NCBI RefSeq assembly: GCF_022347785.1
Contig: NZ_JAKRGA010000002.1
Span: forward strand, 682,001-746,000
Length of the DNA: 64,000 bases
From: Psychrobium sp. MM17-31
GTDB taxonomy: Bacteria; Pseudomonadota; Gammaproteobacteria; Enterobacterales; Psychrobiaceae
Reading direction: 5' to 3'
Both the position numbers and the translations under genes were made by a program. This document shows, in pieces, positions 2-2,759 of the stretch. Positions within the stretch are counted from its first letter, which is position 1, and every line of letters begins with the position of its first letter. The notes beneath the pieces were generated by a model. That model was not told the origin of the DNA, did not search any database, and was given only the letters and a program-made list of their open reading frames with translations.

Positions 2-1159
2 GTTATATTCACATTACTCCAATTAGAGAACACTTTTATTAATTCTATTGATGACAATCAACTCCCTTCTCAAACATTTAGTAAAGCAAAATCATCGGCG
101 TCAGGCATAACTATTCAATATGTTCTATTTTCACAAGAATCTTTCGCTTTTATTCACAGTGAAAATAATATTTCGATCGAATTTCTACCTAAAAAGTCTG
201 AAATAGAAACGCGAGTGAGCCAACTTTTATCAGCATTAAAGAATCGGAATAATGATACATTCAAACAATCGATGGCTTTAAGAAAAACTCTAATACCATC
301 ATCTCTTGAAAATAGTTCTCAAGAACAATTAACAATCATTCCAAGTGGACTTCTATGGAATCTACCATTTAGTATCTTGCCGCTTAATACAAGTAAATCC
401 TGGCAAGACTTACTTTTATTAGATAAATACCACATTAACAAATCCATAAATTTAACCCCTTCTTTTCACTTCGATCCTAAGCAAGTAGGCGCAATCCTAG
501 CTGTTGCAGATCCAGTTTTCTCTAATAATGACAAACGAGTAGCCAACAGTGCTCAGCCAGCTGTTCCCAATGACTTACTTCCGAGAATAAAGCAAACTCA
601 ACGTGAAATTGATGCACTCGAATTATCTTTCAAAGATACAACCCCACTATTACTTTCAGGATACGATGCAACTAAAAACAGGTTTATATCAGAATTAAAG
701 GAAACGCCTCAAATCATTCATGTTGCAACTCACGGATTCGCAACCCTTTCTGGCTTTCGAGAGGCAAGCCTTAGTTTTACCGCTCTTACTCCACAAGGAG
801 CCCAAATAGATAATCACTTAAATATTTACGAAATTGAACAGTTAAAGAACAATGCACAATTAGTGATACTCACTGCATGTGAAGGAAACCTCGGCCAAAC
901 CAGATTCAAGCAACCAAGCGACAGCTTGGCATTAGCATTTGCACGTGGCGGGACAAAAAATGTAATCGCGAGCCAATGGGCAATTCCCTCACGTTCCTCT
1001 GCACAATTAATAGAATACTTTTACCAATACCTTATTCAATCAAAGAACTATAGCACTGCTTTAAATAAAGCAATGCGTACTCTTAGGAAGACGAAACCTG
1101 ACCCGCTCAACTGGGCGGGTTTAACTTTAACCCAGTATAAGGAAGATTATGATGAATGA
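2..1159 (+). CDS. CHAT-domain protein, C-terminal part (5' end outside window)
   Basis: The reading frame is open from base 2 without a stop, so the gene begins left of the window; the GTG at 215 is probably internal. About 385 residues are visible. The C-terminal half carries the two hallmarks of the CHAT (caspase-like, clan CD) peptidase fold: a His motif HVATHG (His codon at 731) and a Cys motif LTACEG (Cys codon at 878), spaced as in separase/caspase-like CHAT enzymes. A further CHAT-typical stretch, FARGGTKNVIASQWAI, follows near base 940. In the family such domains are usually preceded by TPR repeats or other sensor regions, which cannot be seen here. The gene is AT-rich compared with the core genes. 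It overlaps the next gene by 11 bp, suggesting translational coupling. Family assignment is strong; substrate and role are unknown. Confidence 0.88.
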   Translation, partial: VIFTLLQLENTFINSIDDNQLPSQTFSKAKSSASGITIQYVLFSQESFAFIHSENNISIEFLPKKSEIETRVSQLLSALKNRNNDTFKQSMALRKTLIPSSLENSSQEQLTIIPSGLLWNLPFSILPLNTSKSWQDLLLLDKYHINKSINLTPSFHFDPKQVGAILAVADPVFSNNDKRVANSAQPAVPNDLLPRIKQTQREIDALELSFKDTTPLLLSGYDATKNRFISELKETPQIIHVATHGFATLSGFREASLSFTALTPQGAQIDNHLNIYEIEQLKNNAQLVILTACEGNLGQTRFKQPSDSLALAFARGGTKNVIASQWAIPSRSSAQLIEYFYQYLIQSKNYSTALNKAMRTLRKTKPDPLNWAGLTLTQYKEDYDE

Positions 1160-1595
1160 TTCTCTCGGAAAAAATAAAATAACCCTGCACTTTGGCTCCA
1201 CCAACTCTAACGACCCTGCATTACTTAAGTTGTCAAAACTTAAGTTTGAGATATCCGATCAAACTCGAGAAAAAAACCACGCGATTATTGATTGCGTTGA
1301 AGCTTTCTCAACAGCGAATGACAATACTGAAGAGAAGATAGAGGAATCATGGAAATCTATGAAAAGGGCTCATTTAGTCACCAGACTAGCGGGGGAATAT
1401 CGAATCATATCAGGAACCTTGAATTCAACGTTAGAGGGAAGCGATAGCGTATCTGGCCCTTGGTCCGTATTAATAGAACTATTCGATGATAGTTTTAAAC
1501 TATACCTCATTGGTGATCCATATAGCGAAATTAATATGATAGGGGCTAAAAGAGGACCAGCATCTGTTGTTGGGACAACAACTACAGAGGCCTAA
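1149..1595 (+). CDS. Small unknown protein coupled to CHAT gene
   Basis: This encodes 148 residues of a family I do not recognise. It starts at ATG 1149 (a second ATG follows at 1152) inside the 3' end of the CHAT gene, in a different frame, so translation is probably coupled. There is no signal peptide or membrane segment. The sequence is hydrophilic and mixed alpha/beta-like. It has an acidic, helical middle section (about residues 45-75), then a beta-rich stretch (about 80-128). The short C-terminal tail is rich in Gly, Val, Thr and Ser (VVGTTTTEA). Such a small partner directly after a CHAT protease could be a substrate, an inhibitor or an adaptor, but nothing in the sequence decides this. 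Composition is AT-rich like its neighbour. Confidence 0.75.
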   Translation: MMNDSLGKNKITLHFGSTNSNDPALLKLSKLKFEISDQTREKNHAIIDCVEAFSTANDNTEEKIEESWKSMKRAHLVTRLAGEYRIISGTLNSTLEGSDSVSGPWSVLIELFDDSFKLYLIGDPYSEINMIGAKRGPASVVGTTTTEA

Positions 1596-1614: not shown

Positions 1615-2208
1615 TCAAACCAACACCGGATAAATCGACGCCAGCAAACACGCTGCCATGGTGTAGTTAAATAGCGCCAACCGGCGTTGGTTGTTTAAAA
1701 ATAAACTGATTTTTTGGCCAAGAACAGTCCATATACTTACCGTCGGTATATTGATGATTGCAAAAATTGCCGAGATGATAGCAATCGACATTAGGCTGCG
1801 ATCCGGCGAGTAAACACTGATAGCCGTCAGTGCCATTGTCCAGCCTTTTGGGTTTACCCATTGAAACGCGCAGGCTTGAAGAAAAGTTAATGGTTTAGCG
1901 TTGCTTGTTGCGTCGTTTTTCACTTCTCCAGCACGTGCTATTTTATAAGACAGATAAATCAAATAAGTCACACTAAGGATTTTTAACACCGTATGAGTGA
2001 TAGGAAACGCATCGAAAATTCCCATTAACCCCAACCCAACTAAAATTACCATCGCAGCGAATCCTAGCACCACCCCCGCCATATGAGACAGTGTTCTTTT
2101 GAATCCAAAATTGGCGCCAGAAGACATCAACATTAGGTTATTTGGCCCCGGAGTAAAGGTTGAAACTGTGGCAAAGATAACCAGCGCGATAAATAATTCA
2201 GTAGTCAT
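1615..2208 (-). CDS. LysE/RhtB-family amino-acid exporter
   Basis: This is an inner-membrane exporter of the LysE/RhtB type, of which characterised members expel amino acids such as threonine, homoserine or leucine. The diagnostic N-terminal motif TFTPGPNNLMLMSSGAN is present, and about six hydrophobic segments span the roughly 197 residues. I place the start at the ATG at 2208, because GAGAG lies just upstream and family alignment begins at MTTELF; the open frame extends 11 codons further. It is divergent from an Lrp/AsnC-type regulator 98 bp away, a pairing in which the regulator commonly controls the exporter. Here that regulator is interrupted, so control may be lost. The substrate cannot be predicted. 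Confidence 0.88.
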   Translation of the reverse strand: MTTELFIALVIFATVSTFTPGPNNLMLMSSGANFGFKRTLSHMAGVVLGFAAMVILVGLGLMGIFDAFPITHTVLKILSVTYLIYLSYKIARAGEVKNDATSNAKPLTFLQACAFQWVNPKGWTMALTAISVYSPDRSLMSIAIISAIFAIINIPTVSIWTVLGQKISLFLNNQRRLALFNYTMAACLLASIYPVLV

Positions 2209-2306
2209 TGTTAGCTCTCTATAAGTGAAACTCCTAAACAATGTTATGAGAGATATGGTTAAATTATCTTGCTTATTCAGCGCTAAAACTGTTAATTTTG
2301 CAATCT

Positions 2307-2759
2307 ATGGATAAATTAGATCGAATAAACGAAAGAATATTGCACGAGCTATCTCAAGACGGCCGTGTTAGTAATGCTGAGTTGGCCAATCGGGTTGGCT
2401 TGTCGCCGTCAGCGTGTTTACGCCGTGTGCAGGAATTAGAAAACTCAGGCCGCATTGCCGGATATCGCGCGGTATTAAACAAAGAAAAGTTGGGTATTGG
2501 CTGTGTTGCCTATGTGATGGTGGGACTGTCTGATCATACAAAAGATTCACAACTTGCTTTCGAAGCCGCAATGGAAATCACGCCTCAAGTTACTGAGTGT
2601 CACAATATCACGGGAGCTTTTTAATATTTGATTCGCGTAGAAACGAAAGATCTTAACGCTTATAAGAACTTTCACACTGAGGTGTTGGGAACCCTAGCTC
2701 AAGTTACGTCCATTACAACTTATGTTGTGATGGACTCCACGAAAGATCAGCGCTCTTAA
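2307..2759 (+). pseudogene. Lrp/AsnC-family regulator with in-frame stop
   Basis: The first part reads as a normal Lrp/AsnC regulator: an N-terminal winged helix (LDRINERILHELSQDGRVSN, then NRVGLSPSACLRRVQELE) and the start of the RAM/AsnC ligand-binding domain. At 2622-2624 a TAA interrupts the frame after ITGAF. The same frame then continues without interruption through YLIRVETKDLNAYKNFHTEV to a TAA at 2757-2759, restoring a family-length protein of about 150 residues. One base change at the first stop position (GAA to TAA) would explain it. The start is ATG 2307, or TTG 2298 three codons earlier. The product as read lacks most of the effector domain. Sequencing error, a recent mutation or recoding are the alternatives. 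Confidence 0.85.

Follow-up and report, generated by a model that had tools for sequence, protein, structure and literature searches.

A four-gene module at the left edge of the window

The window analysed here is a stretch of 64,000 nucleotides from Psychrobium sp. MM17-31 (G000:C2:682001-746000), whose genome (G000, 4.17 Mb) has one CHAT match. At the left edge of the window lie the end of a gene for a CHAT protease and a gene for a small protein of 148 residues. Judged from the sequence, this pair (positions 2-1595) is the right half of an accessory four-gene signalling module that spans the membrane. The left half lies beyond the window in locus L002, where positions equal window positions plus 18000. 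It encodes a predicted sigma factor of the extracytoplasmic function (ECF) type, an anti-sigma-like membrane protein and the part of the CHAT protein with tetratricopeptide-like repeats (TPR). The relevant features are as follows.

L002:14695-15375, same direction as CHAT: ECF sigma factor, 226 residues (TIGR02937, Sigma70_r2)
L002:15368-15994, same direction as CHAT: anti-sigma-like membrane protein, 208 residues, with the invariant Arg115
L002:15991-17838, same direction as CHAT: frame of 615 residues with the signal peptide (by reading) and the TPR-like repeats of the CHAT protein
Within L002:17801-17850: frame break in the TPR-CHAT gene of G000
Window 2..1159, + strand: CHAT protease domain, the C-terminal part of the TPR-CHAT gene (PF12770, catalytic dyad, alignment with congener G007)
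Window 1149..1595, + strand: small protein of 148 residues, no family (E 3.8e-13 and 37% to a relative in G007)
Window 1615..2241, - strand: right neighbour, LysE-like exporter (named by reading), flank of the insertion site and outside the module

The open frame at 2-1159 comprises 385 residues and extends past the left window edge. It matches PF12770 with 141.4 bits (cut-off 24). Alignment with 12 other CHAT domains places the catalytic pair at His 731-733 and Cys 878-880, and both columns are invariant in all 13 domains. By these marks the frame is a member of the CHAT peptidase family and a predicted cysteine protease. An earlier reading of the letters alone, made without database searches (the sequence-only reading), had described a CHAT domain with an intact His-Cys dyad, an overlap of 11 bp with the 148-residue frame and a high AT content; all three were correct. 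The GC content is 0.37 for the CHAT frame, 0.40 for the small gene and 0.32 for the repeat part left of the window, compared with 0.43 for the whole window, and the first 1.5 kb have the 8th lowest GC content among 250 windows.

The sequence-only reading also advised a look to the left of the window, where the N-terminal domains of the CHAT protein and further genes are indeed present. Three co-directional frames, each overlapping the next, form a run of four genes together with the CHAT frame and the small gene. The 226-residue protein matches TIGR02937 over residues 39-200 (58.4 bits, cut-off 42.9) and Sigma70_r2 (33 bits, cut-off 24); the match to Sigma70_r4_2 is weak (14 bits, cut-off 25.7). 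With the region 2 and ECF superfamily profiles above their cut-offs it is classed as an ECF sigma factor. The 208-residue protein has one hydrophobic helix, and its gene overlaps the sigma gene. Its match to the anti-sigma profile NF052375 is weak (18.4 bits, cut-off 100), as is the match of our anti-sigma profile to PDB chain 3hug_B (E 0.13), which we take to be RslA. On its features this protein is an anti-sigma-like membrane protein with one membrane helix, encoded next to the sigma gene.

The 615-residue frame begins with a signal peptide (by reading) and has weak TPR matches. In the congener G007 the TPR-CHAT gene is whole, with 1059 residues in a single frame. The TPR part from G000 is 38% identical to G007 residues 11-620 and the CHAT part 39% identical to residues 604-1051. 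The two matches lie in different frames and adjoin each other to within 50 bases; this frame break, 150-200 bases before the left window edge, parts the CHAT domain from its signal peptide. From this comparison, the G000 copy is either freshly broken or misread, and the intact copy is found in G007.

G007 carries all four genes at the matching place between matching neighbours, with an overlap of 8 bp between the CHAT and small genes. In G001 and G008, by contrast, the left neighbour (an M28-type peptidase, by reading) lies about 80-115 bases from the LysE-like right neighbour and the module is absent, so that the site is empty in two of the three congener loci fetched. Consequently, the sigma, anti-sigma, TPR-CHAT and small genes are present or missing as one set. 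Two proposals of the sequence-only reading hold up here. The CHAT and small genes are coupled, by our comparison beyond chance, as the pair, its order and its place are all repeated in G007, and the unit is an accessory one among core genes. G005 has a relative of the right neighbour and no M28-type peptidase within the 14 kb fetched, and is uninformative on the insertion site. G006 has a form of the cassette with a peroxidase (PF03098) at another place (L010).

Upstream of the sigma gene, G000 (L002:14633-14694) and G007 (L009) share the elements TGAGAGA and CCGCACTA, whose first bases are 20 bases apart, and this stretch is a possible promoter of the module. TGAGAGA also occurs upstream of the sigma gene in L054, L061 and L065, at other distances. 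No general promoter motif was found among 77 regions upstream of sigma genes. Beyond the exporter, an Lrp/AsnC-like regulator (by reading; window 2298-2624) stops at 108 residues; its G007 counterpart has 161.

Distribution of the cassette and its small genes

The G007 protein has CHAT matches in 16 of 394 genomes sampled from the order. Besides G000, G007 and G006 these are 13 genomes, of which 10 carry the sigma, anti-sigma and TPR-CHAT genes together (14 loci fetched) and three have CHAT genes without the sigma gene. An L010-like peroxidase accompanies the cassette in eight of the 10; seven of these eight have a called co-directional small frame in between, and L032 has only an open frame there. 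The anti-sigma profile matches 13 of the 394 genomes, all of them among the 16 with CHAT. Since all 13 fed the profile, the informative part is the CHAT-free genomes of the sample, in which no match at E 1e-8 was detected. A different arrangement was seen at L036:6028-16148 and L037:5040-15207, each with four tandem CHAT proteins of about 805-834 residues and no such sigma gene in the DNA examined.

Named genomes were also scanned with the sigma alignment, and the best 80 of 98 relatives were used; they come mostly from Gammaproteobacteria, with one from Thermoanaerobaculia. An anti-sigma gene lies downstream in 75 of these 80 loci, a CHAT gene is present in the DNA examined in 66 and a peroxidase gene in 35. 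For loci with at least 6 kb on both sides, the share with CHAT is 49/53. The CHAT gene is located downstream on the same strand in 48 of the 66 loci, upstream in nine and on the other strand in nine. For four of the loci that lack a local CHAT gene (L066, L080, L107 and L115) the whole genome was examined, and each has CHAT elsewhere.

The class sample (369 genomes) gave 16 anti-sigma matches besides that of the window's own genome, six over the full length and 10 to the N-terminal part only. All six full-length matches have the Arg-Ser/Gly pair described below, and four have CHAT in the DNA examined. L164 repeats the record of L057, as L166 and L169 repeat those of L107 and L112; the new loci are thus only L165, L167 and L168, each of them with CHAT. 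The N-terminal-only matches have CHAT in 0/10 cases in the DNA examined, and it occurs elsewhere in three of nine of their genomes. In the phylum sample (398 genomes) nine have matches, four of the N-terminal part only. Altogether 68 distinct cassettes were counted. Repeat-record loci (L046, L068, L079, L082, L087, L102 and L116) were left out of the end-motif and co-variation counts, and scan loci lacking a CHAT frame of at least 900 residues out of the small-frame end counts; hydropathy counts include duplicate loci.

The small protein of the window has a relative in G007 (37% identity; 36% over the alignment), and both share the C-terminal motif RGPASxVG. Conservation at this level marks the small frame as a real protein, in keeping with the sequence-only reading, and within the genus it occurs in two of nine genomes, the window's own included. 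The check proposed in that reading, whether homologous CHAT genes have this neighbour, gave a divided answer: one congener, G007, has it, and other cassettes carry a different one. As that reading had stated, the protein is of no recognisable family: no match in Pfam, NCBIfam or PADLOC was obtained up to E 1, and membership in a family known to these collections was rejected. A structure model from the two-sequence alignment reached a mean predicted local distance difference test (pLDDT) score of 50.5; a Foldseek search with this model gave no match at E 0.001 and was not used.

The slot for a small gene is, on comparison of the loci, general and its occupant variable. At a threshold of E 1e-4 the 82 small neighbours form 47 groups. 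In a profile comparison of 32 groups (496 pairs) the window group reached at most 1% probability with any other group, and seven pairs of other groups exceeded 69%. Exactly one co-directional small frame separates peroxidase and CHAT genes in 33 of the 36 peroxidase loci that remain of 37 once L101 is left out. The remaining three have an open frame (L032, and L073 without Trp at its end) or a fusion: L075:9423-11411 encodes a 662-residue peroxidase that ends in a small-protein-like part with C-terminal SYTW, a fusion of peroxidase and small partner. Trp occurs in the last 12 residues of 32/33 small frames at peroxidase loci, compared with 38/294 control frames of 100-300 residues from the same loci. 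In 28 of 31 non-peroxidase loci a small frame lies flush with the CHAT or anti-sigma gene (by rule). A Gly-rich end is found in 15/28 of these, compared with 2/164 controls (frames of 70-330 residues from non-peroxidase loci); both end counts are inflated by related loci. Another kind of payload is seen at L035:7322-8694, where a small protein with the C-terminal sequence GTGGGGRY and a protein with a metalloprotease-like HEIGHALG motif are encoded after the anti-sigma gene.

Topology and the invariant arginine of the anti-sigma protein

The TPR-CHAT protein is probably exported, as suggested by its N-terminus. A hydrophobic N-terminus was detected in 67 of 78 CHAT proteins (hydropathy threshold 2.0); of the 11 below this threshold, eight score 1.5-2.0 and three are short frames. 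A membrane helix was found in 74 of 85 anti-sigmas (threshold 1.6), the others scoring 1.2-1.53. The small protein of the window has no hydrophobic N-terminus by hydropathy. About 30 of 85 sigma frames (duplicates included), e.g. in L010, L052 and L114, have a hydrophobic stretch after the sigma domain and look as if they were membrane-bound; most of them belong to peroxidase-type cassettes.

The model of the anti-sigma protein (mean pLDDT 87.5, predicted template modelling score 0.56) consists of N-terminal helices, a helix at residues 79-95 and eight strands. The outer domain is modelled as a beta-sandwich, with a phage baseplate protein as best match (Z 9.6), followed by phage neck proteins, azurins and immunoglobulin-like domains. 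At the level of the model this likeness is that of a common sandwich only. No anti-sigma structure is among the fold matches listed, a comparison in which the helical part was barely tested.

Arg115 occupies the only fully invariant column in 77 distinct anti-sigmas (77/77), and its column is likewise the sole invariant one in the 63-row alignment. The following residue is Ser, Gly or Ala in 74 of the 77. Arg115 lies 15-43 residues past the membrane helix, in the loop that joins outer strands one and two; according to the model, a cut at this position would separate the first strand from the rest of the outer domain. The site of separase-type proteases, which we take to be ExxR, was rejected as a general description, with Glu at -3 in 23/77 and Asp in 10/77. 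The Arg-Ser/Gly pair as a mark specific for CHAT was rejected as well, being kept in loci without local CHAT and in L176.

Evolutionary distances of the inner anti-sigma half track those of the sigma factor more, and distances of the outer half those of TPR-CHAT more (interaction 0.149, bootstrap 0.031-0.307, 63 loci). This co-variation suggests a division of labour, in which the inner half would act with sigma and the outer half with TPR-CHAT.

Related systems and a proposed pathway

A precedent for a CHAT protease in sigma control is the type III-E CRISPR system Craspase/CASP (Cas7-11, Csx29, Csx30, CASP-sigma). According to the part of PMC10028731 consulted, its TPR-CHAT protein Csx29 cuts the sigma inhibitor Csx30. 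A TPR-CHAT protein, an ECF-type sigma factor and a sigma inhibitor are combined in one locus, as in the present module. The best PDB match of our CHAT profile is the TPR-CHAT chain 7zoq (E 4.2e-5). Unlike in Craspase, the inhibitor of the module has a membrane helix and the CHAT protein a signal peptide, and the Csx29 model scores the module CHAT with 25.1 bits (cut-off 300). No frame of the size we assume for Cas7-11 lies in the 19 kb left of the window (largest 941 residues), where no CRISPR array search was run. By analogy, the module resembles Craspase/CASP-sigma in logic, without CRISPR.

In the sigma group ECF54, with a model member from Geodermatophilus, CHAT-domain proteins are conserved in the gene context; the sections of PMC8999054 consulted propose control by proteolysis, through CHAT and other proteases, and no anti-sigma. 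The module differs from ECF54, as described there, in having an anti-sigma-like gene. Proteolysis of the RseA/DegS and RsiW type, as outlined in an excerpt of PMC10028731, also concerns a membrane anti-sigma whose outer part is cut first; the first protease proposed here differs from these in being a CHAT cysteine protease encoded by the module itself. No description of a cassette of sigma, anti-sigma and CHAT was found in the literature searched, which left most subscription papers and the ECF classification outside, and the cassette may be described elsewhere.

Our preferred reading, to which we assign a probability of about 0.4, is that exported TPR-CHAT releases the sigma factor by cutting the anti-sigma protein outside the membrane, the small protein being payload. 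The repeat region of the exported protease would sense something outside the inner membrane. Activated CHAT would then cut the outer part of the anti-sigma in the loop near the membrane, probably after Arg115, and thereby expose it to further breakdown. The freed sigma factor would turn on its target genes, and the small protein would be part of the output rather than a substrate. We infer the contact, the cut, the cut site, the signal and the regulon.

Several observations speak for this reading: the four genes overlap and are co-directional, the module is whole in G007 and absent as one from G001 and G008, and CHAT accompanies most sigma loci (66/80, and 49/53 with long flanks). Further support comes from the anti-sigma matches in the order, which are confined to genomes with CHAT, from the hydropathy of the CHAT and anti-sigma proteins, from the invariance and position of Arg115, from the co-variation and from the Csx29 precedent. 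The module context hence suggests that CHAT opens the anti-sigma lock rather than cutting the small neighbour. Other observations weigh against it. The CHAT gene is split in G000, and the basis of the assumed export is hydropathy. With a pLDDT of about 90 in the model the Arg115 loop counts as well ordered, so the Arg may be structural. Arg-Ser/Gly is kept in the four loci without local CHAT (L066, L080, L107, L115), and L176, an anti-sigma outside the family, has it at a like place, with no CHAT in its operon and one 11 kb away. The co-variation is weaker in 51 non-redundant loci (-0.007 to 0.406), and the control protein, the peroxidase, follows the outer half no less closely than CHAT (0.831 vs 0.817, 36 loci).

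More broadly, and still more tentatively, the cassettes may represent an extracytoplasmic counterpart of Craspase signalling, namely a CRISPR-free, caspase- or separase-like bacterial pathway that crosses the inner membrane. Exported TPR-CHAT would read an envelope signal, cut a dedicated anti-sigma after the invariant Arg and release an ECF sigma factor, with a fast-changing payload of a haem peroxidase and/or small proteins with alike C-terminal ends. If this were true, protease-to-sigma signalling of the Craspase kind would be broader than CRISPR and would work from outside the membrane. CHAT proteases are widespread and, to our knowledge, few have known targets. In the 68 distinct cassettes a CHAT protease, in most cases with a signal-like N-terminus, stands together with a candidate target, and one absolutely conserved residue at a defined place in 77 anti-sigmas gives a testable one-residue prediction.

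It is also conceivable, if on balance unlikely, that the output of the sigma factor includes both exported TPR-CHAT and the small protein. Release of the anti-sigma would then be due to a conformational change or to a general protease, with CHAT acting on a different envelope target. The persistence of Arg-Ser/Gly without local CHAT fits this explanation, as do the nine of 66 loci with CHAT on the strand opposite to sigma, where regulon targets may lie, and the peroxidase, probably an output, which tracks the outer domain as well as CHAT. However, the sigma/anti-sigma pair is accompanied by CHAT more often (66/80) than by the peroxidase (35/80), and where the local CHAT gene is missing, all four genomes tested have CHAT elsewhere. 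A further view, which we also judge doubtful, regards the module in G000 as decaying, with TPR-CHAT a fresh pseudogene and the CHAT frame and small gene a relic. It is compatible with the other explanations, which concern the intact module. The frame break speaks for decay, as does a second truncated gene nearby, that of the regulator at 2298-2624 (108 residues instead of 161 in G007). Yet no further break was seen in the module, apart from this one both parts of the CHAT gene form open frames, 38-39% identical to G007, and a sequencing or assembly error would give an identical picture.

The sequence-only reading had suggested that the small protein is a substrate or inhibitor of CHAT. Extended to a docking partner, with its C-terminal tail being recognised, this appears improbable to us. 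Its slot is kept (28/31 non-peroxidase and 33/36 peroxidase loci), unrelated small proteins have alike ends (Trp 32/33 vs 38/294, Gly 15/28 vs 2/164), and some small proteins of other cassettes have signal-like N-termini. The small protein of the window, however, lacks such an N-terminus, in contrast to CHAT with its signal peptide, and its C-terminus belongs to neither the Trp nor the Gly type. Moreover, the small protein of L075 is fused to the peroxidase and not to CHAT, a relative was found in only one other genome, that of a congener, and the slot elsewhere holds unrelated small proteins. The anti-sigma protein is a better candidate target in the same operon. The idea of a new CHAT substrate at this locus was therefore probably right in spirit and aimed at the wrong gene. 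For the accessory defence function that the sequence-only reading had suggested, no sign was found beyond weak matches of the CHAT domain itself: of five module proteins compared with PADLOC for anti-phage defence, only the CHAT frame matched (BovA 23.8 bits, SAVED_CHAT 15.3 bits).

PDB chain 8rot_B, a 'CHAT domain-containing protein' of 991 residues for which we found no paper on the entry, matches both profiles. Its N-terminus (residues 7-107, including a membrane helix) weakly matches the anti-sigma profile, with an E value of 0.32 that is not significant alone, and its C-terminus (residues 843-950) matches the CHAT profile (E 0.0023). By these matches, 8rot_B is possibly a natural fusion of the anti-sigma and CHAT roles.
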